39,164 nucleotides of DNA from a virus. This document shows positions 23,043 through 38,902 of this stretch, piece by piece. The DNA is taken from IMG/VR virus record IMGVR_UViG_3300044618_001297, positions 1 to 39,164 of that record; one strand, written 5' to 3'. The notes under the pieces were generated by a model. The model did not search any database, had not been told where the DNA came from, and saw nothing but the letters and a program-made list of their open reading frames with translations. The position numbers and the translations under genes are program-made. How positions within the stretch are numbered: position 1 is the stretch's first letter; the number at the start of each line of letters is the position of its first letter.

Positions 23043-26000
23043 ATGTTGAGAGATGTATTTTACTATGGCAAAAAGCCAAACGTTCACCCCAGAGAAAGAC
23101 ACGCTGAATCACTAATAGATGCCCGTGCCAAGGCTTCTACTAGCCACTTCTGGATCATTAATGAATTCTGCGATTACAAAAATTTCGATTGGGACTTTGA
23201 CTTTGAATTCTTATCCGACGAAGATGTATGGGCTGAAGATCATAACAATGTGTGGCCCAGCCAACATCAAAAAGATAGTGGCACTTGGCTATGCCCAAAA
23301 GAACACAGTGACTTAATTATCTATCGTGCAGATGTAAATCCTGTACGTAGAAAAAATGAAAAAACTGACAACTGGGTCGAATTAGATTTAATCGATCAAA
23401 GTAAGTTTGACTTCTCATGGCATCCCGATCCTTCTGAACCTGCTTATATCTATAAATGGGGAAATAAGTTTGCACCTGTACAATTAAAAACTGTATTAGA
23501 ATATCACGTTGAGGGTGCAACTCAAGTCAAGTACATGGACTCTATTGTAGAGTTGCTTCCTGAATTAGATAGATGGGTAGAAGTTCAACCAATTGACAAA
23601 GATAAATTTGATATGTCTTGGCGTCCCGATCCAATGGACACCCCGTTCATTTATATTTGGGGTAACAAGTATATCGAAGGCACATTAAAATCTACACTTG
23701 AATATCACGCACCTGGCGCAACTGATAAGAAGTACATGCCTAACCCAATTGAAGTTCTCCCTGAATGGGACAAGTGGGAAATATTACACCCTGTACACAA
23801 AGATAGTTTTGACTTCTCATGGAGACCTGATCCAAGAGAACCAAATATGAATTATGTATTTGGTCATAGTCAATATGACAGTACTAAGATGCCTACTATC
23901 ATTTATAAGATGGATGGGGCAACTGATGAAAAGCATATGCCTAGCGTTGCTAAACTATTGCCTCAAGTCTCACGTTTTGAACACTTAGAAGATTGTAATG
24001 GCATTGATTACAGTTGGGTTCCTGATCCAACTGCGCCTCCTTATATCTATGCATGGGGCAATCAATGGAACAAGCCAGAAGATAAAATCTCTATTCAGTA
24101 TGTAGTAGAAGGTGCAACCGAATATCAATACATGACAGAACGTGCTACACGTAAACCATGTAAAGATAACTGGGAAATTCCTACAGACATAGATACTGCT
24201 GGATTTGATTTCAGTTGGGAGCCTAGTCCTGCCGACCCACCGTTCATCTATGAGTTTGGCACACAGTGGCAGAAGACAGGTGGTCCTCGTTATGTAGTAG
24301 AGGGCGCAACTGAAGTAAAGTATATGGACTTACAACATGTAAGAAAACTGCCATCTACTGATAACTGGGACATACCTTCATATATTGATAAAGATAGTTT
24401 TGATTTTAGTTGGCATCCAGATGCCACATCTCCTAAGTATAATTATAACTTTCCTACTCAGTGGGCGTTGTCGGGAGGCCCTACGTATAAAATGGAAGGC
24501 GCAACAGAAATAAAGTATGTTGAAGACCAAAAAGCAAAAGCATTACCTAATAAAACAAACTGGGAATACTACCCTGATTTAATTGATGAAGATAGTTTTG
24601 ACTTCTCATGGCATCCATATGTAGAAGATCAACCTTACATTTATATCTTTGGTACACAGCATCAAAAGACCGGTGGACCAAAGTATATTACCCCTGGCTG
24701 TCACAAAAATTCACCGATCAAGTATATTGACACACGTATTATCAAAGCAAAACGTTTGCCTAATCTTAAGAATTGGTATGTAGTCACTGATGCTAAATTA
24801 TCGTCATTTGATTATAGTTGGCATCCAGATGATACAGAAGAGCCGTACATCTATGCTTTTGGTAATAATCAATATCCGGCAGAAATTATGCCCACTGTTG
24901 AATATCGTGTGCAGGGTGCAACGCAGGTTAAGTATGTAAACTCTATTGTTGCTACTCTTGCACCTGACAGGGCAAAATGGAATATTCCCAGTGACATTGA
25001 TGATACTGGCTTTGATTATTCATGGAGACCCAATCCCAAAGATCCTGCTTATATCTATGAGTTCGGCACTCAGTGGCAGAAGACAGACGGTCCTCGTTAT
25101 GTAGTAGAGGGCGCAATTGAAGTAAAGTATATGGACTTGCAAAAAGTAAAAAAATTGCCATGCAGTGATAACTGGTCTATACCTTCATATATTGACAAAG
25201 ATAGTTTTGACTTTAGTTGGCATCCAGATGCCACTGCCCCTGCATATGAGTATGTATTTGCTACACAGTGGGCATTTAGTGGTGGGCCGGTGTATCACAT
25301 GAAAAATTCAACAGAAATTAAATATGTTGAAGATCAAAAAGCAAAAGCATTGCCCGATAAAACAAATTGGGAATACTATCCTGACTTGATTGACGAAGAT
25401 AGTTTTGACTTCTCATGGCATCCATATGTAGAAGATCAGCCTTATGTCTATATCTTTGGTACACAACATCAAAAGACAGGTGGCCCAAAGTATATTACTC
25501 CTGGTTGTCACAAGAACAGTCCTGTTAAGTATATTGATACACGTATTCTAAAAGCAAAACGTTTAATGAGTCTTGATAACTATACTGTAGTTGGTAACTT
25601 AAAAGTATTTGCTTTTGATTATTCATGGCATCCTGATGATACAGAAGAACCTTATATCTATCAGTTTGGTAATCAGTACTATGATGCTGAAACAATGCCT
25701 ACTGTACAATATAAAGTTCCCAACGCAACACAAGTTAAATATGTCAGTGGGCTAAAAGCAACTCTTGCACCAGATAGAACTAATTGGGTTATTCCCAAGA
25801 ATGTTGACGCTACTGACTTTGACTTCACATGGAAGCCTAATCCACATGCGCCACCTTATATCTATGAGTTTGGCACACAATGGCAAAAAACAGACGGCCC
25901 TCGTTATGTAGTAGAGGGTGCAACAGAGGTAAAGTATCTAGATGGTTCAAAGGCTAAAAGACTTCCTTCAGAAGAAAACTGGACGATTCCTAGTAATATT

Positions 26001-29000
26001 GATATTACTGGATTTGATTTTTCATGGCATCCAGACAGTACTAGTCCTCCTTACATGTATGTATTTGCTACTCAGTGGGCACTCAGCGGAGGACCTATAT
26101 ACACAGTTCCAGGTGCTACTGAGTTAAAATTTGCAGAAGAACAATCAGCAAAAGCATTACCTGATAGAACTAACTGGGAATATTTCCCTAATGAAATTGA
26201 TGTAGAAGCATTTGACTTCTCATGGCACCCTTACTTAGAAGATCAGCCATACATTTATCAGTTTGGTACTCAGTGGCAAAAGACAGGTGGACCGCAGTAT
26301 GTTGCGCCTGGTGCAACTAAAGAGTCACCTATCAAATATATTGACACACGTATTATCAAAGCAAAACGTTTGCCCAACAGAGATAATTGGAAGGCATTAG
26401 AAAATTATACAGTAGTAGATTTCGATTACTCATGGCACCCTGATGAAACAGAAGAGCCATATATCTATCAATTTGGTAATCAATATCACTCACCCGAAGT
26501 GATGCCTACGATTGAATACAAAGTAAAGAATGCAACTCAAATCAAATACGTGAATAAGCCACTTGCTACTCTTGCGCCCGATATGGACAATTGGGAAGTG
26601 CCTAGTGATATTGATGTAACTAAGTTTGACTTCTCATGGAAGCCAAGTCCCAAAGACCCTGCGTATATCTATCAGTTTGGTACTCAATGGGCTAAGACAC
26701 GTGGCCCGCGTTATGTAGTTCCCGGTGCAAAAGATGTTAAGTATGTTGACATTATCAAAGCACGTGCGTTGCCAAAGAATACTAACTGGGAAGTTCCTGC
26801 TAACATTGATGTTAATAACTTTGACTTCTCATGGCATCCCGATGATACTGACCCTGCTTATATCTATCAGTTTGGTACACAGTGGGCATTTACTGGTGGA
26901 CCTCGTTACACTGTACCCGGTGCAACTGAAGTCAAATATGTTGAAGGTTTAACAGCCAAGTCACTTACTAATATGACTAACTGGGAAATACCAAATGATA
27001 TCTCAGCAACAGAGTTTGATTTTTCATGGCATCCATATGCGGAAGATGATCCTTTCATCTACCAGTTTGGTACACAACATCAAAAGACAGGTGGGCCGCG
27101 ATATATAGTACCTGGTGCAACTAAACTCAAGTATGTTGATACACGTGTGTTGAAAGCACGTAAACTTCCTACTAAAAAGAACTGGGATATTCCTACAACA
27201 ATAGATGTGAGTAAGTTCGACTTCTCATGGCATCCTGATGATACAGCAGGCCCTGTTATCTATCAGTTTGGTACTATCGTAGACCCAATTGACGGACCAA
27301 AATACATTACACCAAACAACAACGGAGAAGTTGTAAACTTAGAACGTGTTGAGATCGAAGAAGTTAAGAAAGAAGAGTATGCTCAATATCTAATTGAGAC
27401 TACACTTGAAGATTTGGTTGATAAACATAAAGACGAAGTATTCTGGGCATTGAACCCTGACTTGAATTATTCAGAGTTTGATTTTAACTGGCGCCCTAGC
27501 ATTGAACAAGCACATTATGTTCATGCATTTGGTACACGTGACAACATGAATACACAAACGTATTTTGTCAACGGGCCACAATGGTTCAAAGGCAATCGTG
27601 AAATTAACTATGTCGAAGATCAAAAAGTTGAGATCAAAGTTAACATTGATATGTTCTATGTTGATAGAGGTAACAAAGAATCCGCTAATAGATTTGAAAC
27701 GCTTAAAGCAAAATTTGGTAATAGAATTCAAAAGACACGTTACCTAAACTCTTGGGTCGATACAATCACTCGTTGCACTAATCGTGCTACAACTAATTTG
27801 GTATGGGTACTAAACTCAGAACTAGACTATACAGGTTTTGACTTTGACTATTACCCTAACCCCTGGCAGATGAAAATGGTAAACGTGTTTGGTACTCAGT
27901 GGTCACACTGGGGTACAACATTTATGATTAACCGTGAAACGTTTGCACAAGACACAAAGTATGTTAAAATCATCGAACACTTGAATAATCTAAACTTTGT
28001 TAAAGATAATCGTACTAAGGCAACAAAAGCATTACACGATGTATATGTTATCGATCATGGTAATCCTGAAGTAACTTCAGTTGTCGAACAGATTACTCAA
28101 AAGGTTGATGAAAAATCTATAACAGTTGTCAAGTACAATAAAAGTTATTTGAACACACTACGTGAGATTATCAATAAACAGCCAGAAAAGAAAGAACATT
28201 ATCTGTGGCTATGCAGTAGTGTTTGTGACTACAGAGAGTTTGACTTTAGTTATATCTGTGATCCTTTCGCTAAAGATCAACTACATGTATTCCCTAGTGG
28301 TAAACAAAAGTTTGGAGACACGTTCTTTATTGATGTAAACAAGACTAGAGAGTTAATTGCAGACATGAAAGTTCTTGAGGACTATCATAAAGTAAACTAT
28401 AACTCTACACTACGTGCGCAACGTTTGCCAGAGCCAACTATTGTTACTAGTAAAGATACAATGGTTGACGCAGTTACTAGCATTGGTAATTGGCCATATG
28501 CTACATTGATTTCAGAAGACAATAACAATATTGAAAAGATTGAAATTGAACCAATGAACTTGTGGGCGCCCGATACTAAAACTATTATCATTACTAGTAC
28601 CGGCGCAAGTAGAATTGTTGTACCACGTGAAGTTAATGACTATGTAAAGAAAGAGTTGTATGATTATCCTTACATTAAGAAATCTACAAAACTTTCTAAG
28701 TCTAACCCAATGGACATTGTATTCTTAAGCAATGGTGAAACTGGCGCAGAAGAAAACTACGAACATCTATTACGAGTTACTAAAGGACTTAAAAACAGAG
28801 TAGTTAGAGTTGATGGCGTAAATGGTCGTGTAGCAGCCTATCATGCTGCCGCAGAAGCAAGCAACACTCCTTGGATGTTCACGGTGTTTGCTAAGTTAAA
28901 GGTCAGTCCTAAATTCGATTGGAACTGGCAACCAGATCGTATGCAGATTTCAAAGCACTATATCTTTCAAGCAAAGAATCCAGTGAATGGTTTGATTTAT

Positions 29001-29372
29001 GGTCACCAAGCAATGATTGCCTACAATAAGAAATTAACTCTTGCCAATGAAGGTAAAGGCTTAGACTTTACCCTTGACGATGAACACGAAGTAGTAGAAC
29101 TATTATCGGGTACAGCGATGTACAACACGGATCCTTTCTCAACATGGCGCACAGCCTTCCGTGAAGTACTGAAACTAAAAGCCGAAGATAGTGATATTGC
29201 TCGGGAGCGCCTTGATGCATGGATGAACAAAGCCGATGGGGACTTTGCACAATTCAGCATCAAGGGCGCTGTTGATGCTGACGAGTTCTATGAAGAAGTC
29301 AATGGTGATTTTAATCAGTTGAAACTTTCATACGAGTGGGCGTGGTTGCGCAAAAGATTCGAAGAATTGTAA
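23043..29372 (+). CDS. Giant repeat protein (2109 aa) with a C-terminal GT-A-like domain
   Basis: Residues 122 to about 1430 hold 20 repeats of 65-70 aa with the core F-D-[FY]-S-W-[HR]-P-x(5-6)-P-x-I-Y-x-F-G-T-Q-W, then G-G-P-x-Y and G-A-T-x-x-K-Y. Degenerate copies lie at the N-terminus (about 40-60) and at 1480-1810. From residue 388 the repeats group in fours (A 65, B 66, C 70, D 68 aa). Residues 1891-2109 form a different domain with IVFLSNGETGAEENYEHLL, AAYHAAAEASNTPW, KNPVNGLIYG and NTDPFSTWRTAFREVLKL. I recall this domain in phage proteins; its layout resembles a GT-A sugar transferase, without a clear DxD. There is no signal peptide or membrane helix. Roles in virion structure, adhesion or sugar transfer are all possible. 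Confidence 0.85.
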   Translation: MLRDVFYYGKKPNVHPRERHAESLIDARAKASTSHFWIINEFCDYKNFDWDFDFEFLSDEDVWAEDHNNVWPSQHQKDSGTWLCPKEHSDLIIYRADVNPVRRKNEKTDNWVELDLIDQSKFDFSWHPDPSEPAYIYKWGNKFAPVQLKTVLEYHVEGATQVKYMDSIVELLPELDRWVEVQPIDKDKFDMSWRPDPMDTPFIYIWGNKYIEGTLKSTLEYHAPGATDKKYMPNPIEVLPEWDKWEILHPVHKDSFDFSWRPDPREPNMNYVFGHSQYDSTKMPTIIYKMDGATDEKHMPSVAKLLPQVSRFEHLEDCNGIDYSWVPDPTAPPYIYAWGNQWNKPEDKISIQYVVEGATEYQYMTERATRKPCKDNWEIPTDIDTAGFDFSWEPSPADPPFIYEFGTQWQKTGGPRYVVEGATEVKYMDLQHVRKLPSTDNWDIPSYIDKDSFDFSWHPDATSPKYNYNFPTQWALSGGPTYKMEGATEIKYVEDQKAKALPNKTNWEYYPDLIDEDSFDFSWHPYVEDQPYIYIFGTQHQKTGGPKYITPGCHKNSPIKYIDTRIIKAKRLPNLKNWYVVTDAKLSSFDYSWHPDDTEEPYIYAFGNNQYPAEIMPTVEYRVQGATQVKYVNSIVATLAPDRAKWNIPSDIDDTGFDYSWRPNPKDPAYIYEFGTQWQKTDGPRYVVEGAIEVKYMDLQKVKKLPCSDNWSIPSYIDKDSFDFSWHPDATAPAYEYVFATQWAFSGGPVYHMKNSTEIKYVEDQKAKALPDKTNWEYYPDLIDEDSFDFSWHPYVEDQPYVYIFGTQHQKTGGPKYITPGCHKNSPVKYIDTRILKAKRLMSLDNYTVVGNLKVFAFDYSWHPDDTEEPYIYQFGNQYYDAETMPTVQYKVPNATQVKYVSGLKATLAPDRTNWVIPKNVDATDFDFTWKPNPHAPPYIYEFGTQWQKTDGPRYVVEGATEVKYLDGSKAKRLPSEENWTIPSNIDITGFDFSWHPDSTSPPYMYVFATQWALSGGPIYTVPGATELKFAEEQSAKALPDRTNWEYFPNEIDVEAFDFSWHPYLEDQPYIYQFGTQWQKTGGPQYVAPGATKESPIKYIDTRIIKAKRLPNRDNWKALENYTVVDFDYSWHPDETEEPYIYQFGNQYHSPEVMPTIEYKVKNATQIKYVNKPLATLAPDMDNWEVPSDIDVTKFDFSWKPSPKDPAYIYQFGTQWAKTRGPRYVVPGAKDVKYVDIIKARALPKNTNWEVPANIDVNNFDFSWHPDDTDPAYIYQFGTQWAFTGGPRYTVPGATEVKYVEGLTAKSLTNMTNWEIPNDISATEFDFSWHPYAEDDPFIYQFGTQHQKTGGPRYIVPGATKLKYVDTRVLKARKLPTKKNWDIPTTIDVSKFDFSWHPDDTAGPVIYQFGTIVDPIDGPKYITPNNNGEVVNLERVEIEEVKKEEYAQYLIETTLEDLVDKHKDEVFWALNPDLNYSEFDFNWRPSIEQAHYVHAFGTRDNMNTQTYFVNGPQWFKGNREINYVEDQKVEIKVNIDMFYVDRGNKESANRFETLKAKFGNRIQKTRYLNSWVDTITRCTNRATTNLVWVLNSELDYTGFDFDYYPNPWQMKMVNVFGTQWSHWGTTFMINRETFAQDTKYVKIIEHLNNLNFVKDNRTKATKALHDVYVIDHGNPEVTSVVEQITQKVDEKSITVVKYNKSYLNTLREIINKQPEKKEHYLWLCSSVCDYREFDFSYICDPFAKDQLHVFPSGKQKFGDTFFIDVNKTRELIADMKVLEDYHKVNYNSTLRAQRLPEPTIVTSKDTMVDAVTSIGNWPYATLISEDNNNIEKIEIEPMNLWAPDTKTIIITSTGASRIVVPREVNDYVKKELYDYPYIKKSTKLSKSNPMDIVFLSNGETGAEENYEHLLRVTKGLKNRVVRVDGVNGRVAAYHAAAEASNTPWMFTVFAKLKVSPKFDWNWQPDRMQISKHYIFQAKNPVNGLIYGHQAMIAYNKKLTLANEGKGLDFTLDDEHEVVELLSGTAMYNTDPFSTWRTAFREVLKLKAEDSDIARERLDAWMNKADGDFAQFSIKGAVDADEFYEEVNGDFNQLKLSYEWAWLRKRFEEL
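23406..27330 (+). repeat. Tandem protein-coding repeats, single-unit level
   Basis: Twenty in-frame units of 195-210 bp start (at the core Phe codon) at 23406, 23607, 23808, 24003, 24204, 24399, 24597, 24807 and so on to 27216. The units are alike at protein level but mostly diverged in codons, so the array is old and kept by selection. Some words are still shared between units, such as GACTTCTCATGGCATCC. Confidence 0.9.
24204..27230 (+). repeat. Four-unit super-repeat with exact 807-bp period
   Basis: The A unit's core Phe codon lies at 24204, 25011, 25818 and 26625, three steps of exactly 807 bp (269 codons). The D unit lies at 24807, 25614 and 26421, offset 603 each time, and at 27216 (offset 591) in the fourth block. 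Block 4 is 12 bp shorter because its C unit lacks the KNSP/KES insertion (PGATKLKYVD instead of CHKNSPIKYID). This shows duplication of whole four-unit blocks after the units had diverged. Confidence 0.9.
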
Positions 29373-32216: not shown

Positions 32217-32285
32217 GAGTTATGACAGTATGAAGTAGACTGAAAAGGATTCAAGACGCGGGGGCAGTGCCCGCCATCTCCACCA

Positions 32286-32342
32286 TAGACACATTGTTTA
32301 GTTATGGGATTTGCGTATGCGAGTCGGCAGTGTGTCTATGAT
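32286..32342 (+). other. tmRNA intervening segment (removed in maturation)
   Basis: TAGACACA (32286-32293), directly after the CCA, pairs with TGTGTCTA (32331-32338), directly before the coding piece. With the acceptor stem this forms one long helix with a single mismatch, so the two pieces are held together while processing enzymes cut out the loop. Confidence 0.8.
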
Positions 32343-32451
32343 GGGGATGACACAGGATCGATTGGGTCAAGAGTAAAGAAATGGACTGTTCGGCAATGTA
32401 GAAGCCGTTAGGATTGGGGAAACCCGGTCGAAGAAGCACAAAAAAGTAACT

Positions 32452-32496
32452 GCAAATGACAATTACTACACTGAGGAACTACGCCTAGCGGCGTGA
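32452..32496 (+). other. tmRNA tag reading frame
   Basis: GCA at 32452 is the resume codon. The frame reads ANDNYYTEELRLAA then TGA (32494-32496). The ANDN start and the LAA end are usual for tmRNA tags recognised by ClpXP and related proteases. With the alanine carried by the tmRNA itself the full tag is one residue longer. Confidence 0.93.
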
Positions 32497-32533
32497 GTCT
32501 CACGAGGCTGACTACCTTGTAACCAAACAGTTA

Positions 32534-32559
32534 GGAAAAGGCTCTTCGGAGCCTTTTCT
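32534..32559 (+). terminator. Rho-independent terminator of the tmRNA gene
   Basis: AAAAGGCTC (32536-32544), loop TTCG, GAGCCTTTT (32549-32557), then a T-rich tail. The stem is identical to that of the terminator at 35206. Confidence 0.9.
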
Positions 32560-32572
32560 TTTGGTTTCATAA

Positions 32573-32585: not shown

Positions 32586-33386
32586 ATGAAAACGTATCGT
32601 TCCATCTTTATTTCAGACGTTCATCTTGGTACCAAAGACAGCCAAGCAGGAAAACTTAACAACTTTTTGAAACATAACAGTTGTAATACATTGTACTTGG
32701 TCGGAGATATTATTGATGGATGGAAGATACAACAAAACAAATGGCGCTGGAAACAAAGTCATACTAACGTAGTTCGTAGAGTATTAGGTCACGCTAAACG
32801 AGGTACTAGAGTAGTATATGTAGCAGGCAACCATGATGAATTTTTAAGAACAATGCTACCCTATAATTTTAATTTTGGGTTAATCGAAATTCATAACCAA
32901 ATAGAACATGTCGGGGCGGATGGCAAACACTATCTAGTCATACATGGTGATTTGTTTGATGGCATCACACGACTAGCACCATGGATAGGATTTTTAGGAG
33001 ACAAAGCATATGATATCATTTTATCGCTTAATAGCAGATTCAATTGGATCCGTCATCGTATGGGTTTTGGGTATTTTAGTATTAGTAAATATCTTAAACA
33101 CAAAGTAAAAAAGGCAGTTGATTTTATCTTCCAGTTTGAATCAAATTTGGCAGCATATTGTAAAAAAAGAGACTACGATGGTGTGATATGTGGACACATA
33201 CATCACGCTGAAATAAAAGAAATTAATGGTGTAATATATATGAATGACGGCGATTGGGTAGAAAGTTGTACAGCACTAGTAGAGCATCATGACGGCCGTT
33301 GGGAAATCGTAACTTGGACTAAGGAGAAAGATGATGAAAGTAAAGAAGATAGTAAAGAAAATGTATCAAGCAATATTGAACCATAA
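32586..33386 (+). CDS. LpxH-like metallophosphoesterase
   Basis: A 266-aa calcineurin-like phosphoesterase of the UDP-2,3-diacylglucosamine diphosphatase type. Metal-site motifs in order: SDVHLGT (Asp11, His13), LVGDIIDGW (Asp41), AGNHDEF (Asn82, His83), VIHGDLFDG (His120) and ICGHIHHAEI (His204, His206). LpxH cleaves UDP-diacylglucosamine to lipid X and UMP in lipid A synthesis. The sequence is close to bacterial relatives, so it was probably taken from a host; the GT2 gene nearby also fits envelope glycolipid work. Another small diphosphate substrate is possible. It starts directly after a promoter-like motif. Its 3' end overlaps a 44-aa ORF in another frame. Confidence 0.87.
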   Translation: MKTYRSIFISDVHLGTKDSQAGKLNNFLKHNSCNTLYLVGDIIDGWKIQQNKWRWKQSHTNVVRRVLGHAKRGTRVVYVAGNHDEFLRTMLPYNFNFGLIEIHNQIEHVGADGKHYLVIHGDLFDGITRLAPWIGFLGDKAYDIILSLNSRFNWIRHRMGFGYFSISKYLKHKVKKAVDFIFQFESNLAAYCKKRDYDGVICGHIHHAEIKEINGVIYMNDGDWVESCTALVEHHDGRWEIVTWTKEKDDESKEDSKENVSSNIEP

Positions 33387-37801: not shown

Positions 37802-38902
37802 ATGTCTCACGTATCTGATAATCTCACAATTACTTCTGTTCAGGCCCGCAAGGCAATTCTGACAGCATTCAAAGCAAAGCGACCCGTTTTTCTTTGGGGA
37901 CCTCCCGGCATCGGTAAGTCGGAAGTCGTAGAAGAAATCACTAACGAACTTAGTGGTGCTATGATTGACTTGCGTATGGCGCAGATGGAACCAACTGATA
38001 TTCGTGGTATCCCTTACTTCAATAAAGAAATCAACAAGATGGACTGGGCTGAGCCTGTCGATCTTCCTAGCGAAGAATTCGCTAAAGACTACCCTATCGT
38101 AGTTCTCTTCCTCGATGAAATGAACTCTGCACCCCCTGCAGTGCAAGCGGCTGGCTATCAACTTATTCTTAACCGTCGTGTAGGTAAGTACAAGTTGCCT
38201 GATAACGTTGTTATTGTTGCCGCAGGTAATCGTGACAGTGACAAGGGTGTTACGTATCGTATGCCGATGCCCCTTGCTAATCGTTTCATTCACATTGAAA
38301 TGCGTCCCGACTTTACTTCATGGCAGAATTGGGCTGTAAACAAGAACATTCACAAGGACGTTGTTGGTTATCTGTCTTTTGCAAAGCAGGACCTCTATGA
38401 TTTTGATGCAAAGTCTTCAAGCCGTGCATTTGCTACTCCCCGTTCGTGGTGTTTCGTTAGCGATTTGCTTGATGACGAAGACAACACTGATACTGATACA
38501 TTGTTCAATCTTGTTGCAGGTTCAGTTGGTGATGGTCTTGCTACAAAGTTTATGGCACACCGCAAGGTTGCAGGTCGTATGCCTAACCCAACTGACATTC
38601 TGTCAGGTAAGGTAACTGAACTCAACGTTAAAGAAATCAGTGCGATGTACTCACTCACTGTTTCTATGTGCTATGAACTCAAGGATTCACTTGAGAACAA
38701 GACTGCTGATCGTAAGCAGTTTCACGAAATGGCTGACAACTTCTTCTCATACATGATGAAGAATTTCGAAACTGAACTTGTTGTTATGGGTGCTAAGATT
38801 GCGCTTAAGACTTACAAGTTGCCGATTGAGCCTTCTCAATTGAAGAACTTTGACGAGTTTCACAAGAAGTACGGCAAGTACATTGTGGAAGCAGGCAACT
38901 AA
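37802..38902 (+). CDS. MoxR-like AAA+ ATPase
   Basis: A 366-aa protein. Walker A is GPPGIGKS at 33-40, Walker B VVLFLDE at 100-106 followed by MNSAPPAVQAAGYQLI, sensor 1 Asn143 in AAGNRDSD and the probable arginine finger Arg161 in PLANRF. The order fits MoxR-family AAA+ proteins, which use ATP to remodel target proteins or insert cofactors, usually with a VWA-domain partner; the partner would lie to the right of the window if present. It has a strong promoter and ribosome binding site of its own and a hairpin after it. Its codon choice leans more to C- and G-ending codons (AAG, AAC, CTC, TAC) than the genes to the left, as in highly expressed or more recently acquired genes. Confidence 0.9.
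   Translation: MSHVSDNLTITSVQARKAILTAFKAKRPVFLWGPPGIGKSEVVEEITNELSGAMIDLRMAQMEPTDIRGIPYFNKEINKMDWAEPVDLPSEEFAKDYPIVVLFLDEMNSAPPAVQAAGYQLILNRRVGKYKLPDNVVIVAAGNRDSDKGVTYRMPMPLANRFIHIEMRPDFTSWQNWAVNKNIHKDVVGYLSFAKQDLYDFDAKSSSRAFATPRSWCFVSDLLDDEDNTDTDTLFNLVAGSVGDGLATKFMAHRKVAGRMPNPTDILSGKVTELNVKEISAMYSLTVSMCYELKDSLENKTADRKQFHEMADNFFSYMMKNFETELVVMGAKIALKTYKLPIEPSQLKNFDEFHKKYGKYIVEAGN

Follow-up and report, generated by a model that had tools for sequence, protein, structure and literature searches.

A permuted tmRNA gene with an extra hairpin before its tag in a probable fragment of a very large phage

The window analyzed here, an entire linear IMG/VR virus record of 39,164 bp that is likely incomplete, carries a complete permuted (two-piece) tmRNA gene at positions 32224 to 32496 of the + strand. 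Between PK1 and the resume codon, the gene holds an extra 7-bp hairpin (GATTGGG-GAAA-CCCGGTC, 32412 to 32429) that went unmentioned in a preliminary description of this DNA. We consider it likely that the gene specifies a working phage-encoded tmRNA, which would be processed, charged with alanine, and used in SmpB-dependent trans-translation and tagging, with a role for the hairpin. A full-text search, with most subscription papers outside its reach, found no published description of the hairpin or of tmRNA cassette exchange among phages, and both the phage tetraloop hairpin with its compensatory changes and the shuffling of cassettes therefore appear to be new.

The covariance search proposed in the preliminary description returned two permuted models above their cut-offs. 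RF04321 (tmRNA_permuted) was matched over its full length (cmscan; 104.9 bits; cut-off, 47; E value, 1.3e-19; model positions 1 to 213 of 213), while RF01849 (alpha_tmRNA) was matched at 78.4 bits (cut-off, 50) over model positions 40 to 245 of 355 only, with no whole-model cmscan match that included both of its ends. The gene fell below the cut-off of RF01850 (beta_tmRNA), for which cmscan gave no row. ARAGORN reported no gene at the site, and it does detect a relative, L113, that has a tag identical to that of the window.

As the preliminary description had read from the letters, the acceptor (3′) piece, parsed at 32224 to 32285 and starting with the RF04321 match, comes before the coding (5′) piece. 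It contains a T-stem (32258 to 32262 with 32270 to 32274) around the T-loop GGCAGTG (32263 to 32269), the 3′ strand of the acceptor stem (32275 to 32281), and an encoded CCA that ends at 32285. The start of the coding piece, including the linker to the tag, was placed at 32343 to 32451 by the covariance models and parsing. The acceptor stem claimed across the break forms all 7 of its pairs between CATCTCC (32275 to 32281) and GGGGATG (32343 to 32349), and its third pair is indeed G3-U70, which all 356 of the parsed genes have, counting repeats (the parser required 7 acceptor pairs and left the third pair free). Helix 2 pairs 32362 to 32368 with 32248 to 32254; its pairing was not required by the parser, and at least 5 of 6 pairs are present in 161 of 168 phage genes, with a mean of 5.88 against 5.16 for shuffled partners (maximum, 5.30). 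The PK1 stem, recovered by both parsing and RNAalifold, joins 32391 to 32394 with 32404 to 32407. The tag reading frame, which begins with the resume codon, occupies 32452 to 32496 and reads ANDNYYTEELRLAA plus a stop, in agreement with the earlier reading. The A at position -4 is invariant (85 of 85 aligned coding pieces), and we take it to be the equivalent of E. coli A86.

The fold of 32217 to 32420 is better than expected by chance (z, -3.7; 0 of 200 shuffles equally good), and that of the coding piece at 32340 to 32456 alone is unremarkable (z, -1.0; 28 of 200 shuffles equally good). An intrinsic-terminator-like hairpin of 12 pairs lies at 32533 to 32560 (+ strand), with 1 such hairpin found versus 0.8 expected in shuffles, and no outstanding promoter was found near the gene (6 found versus 8.9 expected).

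The two pieces are separated by an intervening segment of 57 nt (32286 to 32342) that, judging from its helix and fold, is expected to be excised. The long helix that the preliminary description saw closing this segment measures 13 bp (32286 to 32298 with 32326 to 32338) and encloses an inner hairpin at 32308 to 32325. Closing helices of at least 7 bp occur in 90% of 164 phage segments (8.7% when shuffled) and in 47% of 97 bacterial segments (6.2% when shuffled). The phage helices comprise 128 distinct arm pairs, which indicates that pairing has been retained though the letters vary. The median length of the segment is 88 nt in phages versus 30 nt in bacteria. A cousin hairpin, GATTTGC-GTAT-GCNAGTC, is present in 11 contigs (inspected except for L552 and L553), sitting in the intervening segment of the window (32308 to 32325) and at the PK1 site of L090 (1321 to 1338 of that locus).

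The 39-kb record is probably a fragment of a very large phage, as suggested by the kinship of one of its genes. An AAA-ATPase at 37802 to 38902 of the + strand (phrog_1297; E value, 1e-101) serves as the marker of this kinship. It matches jumbo phages such as PA5oct, Phosso, Atu_ph07, and SCTP-2, and 9 of the 15 records searched, one of them the window, contain it. The protein is 85% identical in G027 (349 kb), G034 (171 kb), G037 (525 kb), and G040 (230 kb) and 74% identical in G032 (345 kb) and G033 (262 kb). All six of these contigs carry a permuted tmRNA, although they are not independent cases, since G034 and G037 have an identical tmRNA, as do G032 and G033. A T4-type Gp23 capsid protein is encoded in G027, G032, G037, and G040 (230 to 525 kb) and in 0 of 14 control genomes; the tail sheath PF04984, tried as a further phage marker and rejected, appeared in 2 of 23 records at E values of <0.001, in none over the cut-off. 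Gp23 is absent from the window record, itself linear and likely incomplete, and there are no structural genes in the window, so that its link to phages rests on these relatives. Many enzyme genes and no structural gene are also what would be expected if a fragment of a bacterial chromosome had been misfiled as a virus and the tmRNA gene were the host's own ssrA. We give this only a very slight chance, as the record is listed as viral in IMG/VR and its AAA-ATPase is common to the Gp23-bearing contigs (Gp23, 0 of 14 controls). The phage-like setting claimed in the preliminary description is upheld by the virus record and by an AAA-ATPase common to huge, Gp23-bearing contigs. Neither of the outcomes that would have refuted that description was seen: permuted models were matched, and the record is listed as viral.

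The remainder of the window includes, between 661 and 23034 and on one strand, genes for radical SAM, SPASM, B12-binding, epimerase, nucleotide-sugar dehydrogenase, aminotransferase, and carbamoyltransferase proteins, followed at 23043 to 29372 by a gene for a 2109-residue protein to which neither Pfam nor PHROG gave a match. Next downstream of the tmRNA gene lies a metallophosphoesterase gene (32586 to 33386, + strand) that has relatives in many viral contigs. The phosphoesterase was rejected as a fixed neighbor of the tmRNA gene, being present within 1.5 kb downstream in only 10 of the 126 loci with enough flank.

Permuted tmRNA genes in phages had been thought unusual in the preliminary description, and that view must be given up. 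One published study (PMC9004378), covering 402 phages, counted 133 unique tmRNA structures; 53 were two-piece molecules, and 50 of these came from marine or aquatic samples. This part of the finding is therefore not new. Our own search, which took 50 of about 100 loci, found RF04321 in 28 of 50 records (27 over the cut-off, including Sinorhizobium phage Phosso). This is no frequency estimate, because nine of the 50 had been picked by a tmRNA-like pattern. The tmRNA was absent from the other 22 records searched, many of which are fragments. Excerpts of other papers report huge phages with tmRNA and SmpB (PMC7162821) and a megaphage with one tmRNA (PMC9723777).

A scan of bacterial genomes for permuted tmRNA matched 334 of 398 genomes, 157 of them over the cut-off; only places of 96 bits or more were fetched, which gave 137 loci, with 129 placed by the parser and 8 dropped. 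The parsed set consisted of these 129 genes and 168 distinct phage tmRNAs, the latter drawn partly from matches listed in motif scans. A betaproteobacterial set of 33 loci contributed 32 placed genes (all but L577), among them L522, which is the same gene as L163, for 160 bacterial loci overall. In the genome sets searched for these loci, beta_tmRNA was over its cut-off in 4 of 150, 26 of 61, and 6 of 61 genomes, with weak matches only in the others, so that the two-piece tmRNA is patchy in the order searched. Two bacterial genomes, G249 (8.8 Mb) and G336 (7.3 Mb), carry two permuted tmRNA genes each, the second lower scoring.

The extra hairpin sets a class of phage genes apart from their bacterial counterparts. 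Aligned to both RF04321 and RF01849, the window shows an insert of 22 nt ahead of the resume codon, and this insert contains the hairpin. Counted from the acceptor strand, the resume codon lies 104 to 112 nt away in 93 of the 168 phage genes, versus 80 to 101 nt in the 129 bacterial genes (80 to 88 nt in 127) and 83 to 85 nt in 32 further betaproteobacterial genes. The hairpin of the 93 phage genes has 7 pairs in 89 and 6 pairs in 4, and in every one of them it is separated from the resume codon by 20 to 22 nt. It was found in none of 72 shorter phage genes, even by a loose test, and by the strict test in 0 of 160 bacterial permuted tmRNAs (0 of 129 and 0 of 32 betaproteobacterial, with one gene in common). 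A looser test (6 of 7 pairs) returned some tetraloop hairpin in the region in 10 of the 129 bacterial genes, with 7 weak pairs in L257; the eight that were inspected differ in sequence and lie 3 to 19 nt from the tag. One phage gene, L431, has a further insert in the hairpin region before the tag, which extends the distance from acceptor strand to resume codon to 142 nt. The parser did not place L126 to L129, although L126 plainly carries the hairpin.

Among the matches listed, 76 of the 93 hairpin-class genes came from a motif scan for the hairpin itself. Since the motif of that scan prescribes a GNAA loop and most letters of the stem, the GNRA loop in 84 of the 93 is partly built in. For this reason, the frequency and loop type were taken from a differently chosen set. 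In a set selected by another motif, 60 of 80 among the matches listed were parsed, 57 were distinct, and 20 of the 57 had the hairpin. The 20 hairpin genes outside the hairpin scan, again among the matches listed, include 17 with all 7 pairs and 14 with a GNRA loop. Further, the hairpin was present in 7 of 22 loci collected earlier, four of the seven being the window and its near-copies.

Among hairpin-motif sites in loci L296 to L413, 107 of 118 passed a strict test that required a PK1 stem upstream and the start of a tag downstream; the remaining 11 are tmRNA-like by eye, two of them cut by a contig end. The 398 bacterial genomes yielded a single match at up to 2 mismatches, which by eye resembles a helicase-type coding frame and has no PK1 stem. 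Within the reach of blastn, hairpin-bearing queries gave no match across the hairpin in 50,697 phage records. A dispersed repeat was considered as the source of the hairpin and rejected, the motif occurring once in the window at up to 3 mismatches.

Covariation supports both the hairpin and the neighboring PK1 stem, which RNAalifold finds unprompted when 85 coding pieces selected for their length are aligned. Pairing is kept in 99.6% of 935 cells, most of it partly built in by the motif-scan origin of the genes, and two-sided changes are seen in 6 of 11 pairs. The covariation score is 0.278, compared with 0.130 after shuffling (0 of 500 as high) and a maximum of 0.100 with slid partners. Because the motif used in the scan dictates much of the stem, the informative pairs are those with one side unconstrained. 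At the second hairpin pair, 54 pieces have A-U, 30 have G-C, and 1 is unpaired; outside the motif scan, this pair is A-U in 11, G-C in 5, and A-C in 1. The inner PK1 pair varies among G-C (41 of the 85 pieces), C-G (32), and U-A (12). Similarly, the stem of L090 (GATTTGC-GTAT-GCAAGTC) has several pairs swapped with pairing intact. Such a complete and covarying gene is hard to reconcile with a functionless attachment-site mark left by integration, a reading that excerpts of the literature on tmRNA genes as common integration sites (PMC11915505) bring to mind; with a Pfam scan of 30 window proteins revealing no integrase, we attach almost no weight to it.

Phylogenetic analysis of the tRNA-like domain alone (FastTree; 136 columns, 297 rows) separates phages from bacteria with 3 changes, whether 129 or 160 bacterial rows are used, on a tree with few columns and many forks unresolved. 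One split of the tree misplaces only 2 of the 297 rows, those of Phosso and of the one betaproteobacterial gene. When 31 betaproteobacterial genes were added, they formed one group, the phages and bacteria were still 3 changes apart, and a branch with a support of 99 had the window and other phages on its alphaproteobacterial side. That placement, together with the alpha-style tag and the partial alpha_tmRNA match, is what a recently captured host ssrA, with no phage history of its own, would show. Such a capture is nevertheless improbable in light of the few phage/bacteria changes on the tree (3 only), the absence of the hairpin from the bacterial genes (0 of 160), and the presence, in other phage contigs, of at least four near-copies as well as additional relatives.

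Within the phages, the presence of the hairpin requires 34 changes on the tree, a minimum of 12 being forced by strongly supported branches for the hairpin group; the tag length class requires 17. The window and L113 are 98% identical in the tag, 83% in the intervening segment, and 85% at the 3′ end, but only 69% and 75% in the tRNA-like segments. With L111, the tRNA-like segments are 91% and 87% identical and the tag 54%, that of L111 being the beta-style ANDEQFALAA. The window therefore has an alpha-style tag on a domain whose nearest other relatives, near-copies aside, have beta-style tags. We read this mosaic as the likely product of recombination or gene conversion between cassettes, although with sequences this short the exact number of exchange events is unsafe. 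Tag and hairpin thus appear to have been shuffled among phage tRNA-like domains, and the tag alone would not name the host.

Most phage tags (144 of 168) end in LAA, and 9 of 168 end in LVA (4), MVA (3), or ANA (2). Tag frames of 26 to 31 residues, such as ANADTFEFGALNFTGNTVGAANEGRFALAA, are found in L105, L349, L371, L388, and L401, versus 10 residues in most phages. Regarding the alphaproteobacterial (or betaproteobacterial) host suggested in the preliminary description, the alpha-like character of tag and domain stands, but the assignment is weakened by nearest relatives with beta-style tags, by the variation of tags between closely related phages, and by the tag itself, which is found in no sampled bacterium (0 of 129 bacterial permuted tmRNAs and 0 of 32 parsed betaproteobacterial ones). 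The tag start was also tried as a guide to the host and rejected: a scan of genome contigs gave 17 matches, none translating to a tmRNA-like tag, and ARAGORN reported no gene at the 11 of these 17 loci submitted to it. The 17 sites resemble what we take to be Fur/Zur-type boxes.

The RNA most likely functions in trans-translation with host SmpB. Its transcript would be matured like a tRNA precursor, the long closing helix keeping the acceptor ends in contact up to the excision of the intervening segment, after which the two pieces would remain paired and be charged with alanine via G3-U70. Host alanyl-tRNA synthetase, SmpB, and proteases would be used. A search for SmpB (PF01668) was negative in all 23 records examined and positive in 10 of 14 control genomes, which argues that the phage tmRNA depends on its host. 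Ribosomes stalled on mRNA broken during infection may thereby be freed, with ANDNYYTEELRLAA added for proteolysis. The hairpin was presumably inserted at the base of PK1 in the phage lineage, with the 20- to 22-nt linker to the resume codon kept, and would most likely stabilize or position the segment that sets the reading frame. The choice of the resume codon by tmRNA is an old question, and two E. coli studies indicate that the segment between PK1 and the tag matters, affecting both tagging and reading frame (PMC2481249, PMC4236655). A hairpin in this segment is therefore expected to have a role in placing the resume codon.

The absence of SmpB from the phage records (0 of 23) could equally be invoked for a decoy that inhibits host tmRNA by titrating SmpB, as suggested for the mycobacteriophage DS6A gene, which has a tRNA-like domain only; excerpts of two papers describe tmRNA inhibition by DS6A-like molecules (PMC4131195, PMC11915505). 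We find this unlikely, because a decoy would not need the mRNA-like part, which is intact here, with a tag frame and stop, the A at -4, a constant linker, and tags mostly ending in LAA. Trans-translation remains the preferred reading. A bolder and more tentative proposal, which we think possible but would not bet on, can also be framed. Huge phages might possess their own tmRNA subclass, marked by the hairpin as a frame-fixing docking element independent of the usual host factor, and the parts of the molecule (tRNA-like domain, PK1 plus hairpin, tag, and intervening segment) might be cassettes, with the tag swapped along with host class or protease. The combinations of domain, hairpin, and tag in phages amount to a large set of natural chimeras that could indicate which parts must match and whether phages retag proteins for another protease. 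The tag of a phage tmRNA is itself a weak guide to the host.

Among known systems, the two-piece tmRNA of OM43 phage Melnitz and other phages, as described in passages of PMC9004378, is like the window in its permuted gene, large marine myophage, and alphaproteobacterial affinity. The Melnitz gene is accompanied by a glutamine riboswitch according to the same passages, whereas no riboswitch family reached its cut-off in the window. Sinorhizobium phage Phosso (L102) is likewise a huge phage with a related AAA-ATPase (44%) and an RF04321 match of 113.3 bits. It differs from the window in its 410-nt intervening segment and its tag, ANDNVSTKVALAA, falls outside the hairpin class, and groups with bacteria on the tree. 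The betaproteobacterial two-piece tmRNA (RF01850) is matched by many phage relatives with tags such as ANDEQFALAA, while the window is under its cut-off and the hairpin occurs in 0 of 32 of the bacterial representatives. The alphaproteobacterial two-piece tmRNA (RF01849) is unlike the window in having no hairpin insert in bacteria, and the window covers 40 to 245 of its 355 model positions; the two share an ANDN-type tag, a GGC(A/G)GT(A/G) T-loop, and the permuted order of the pieces.
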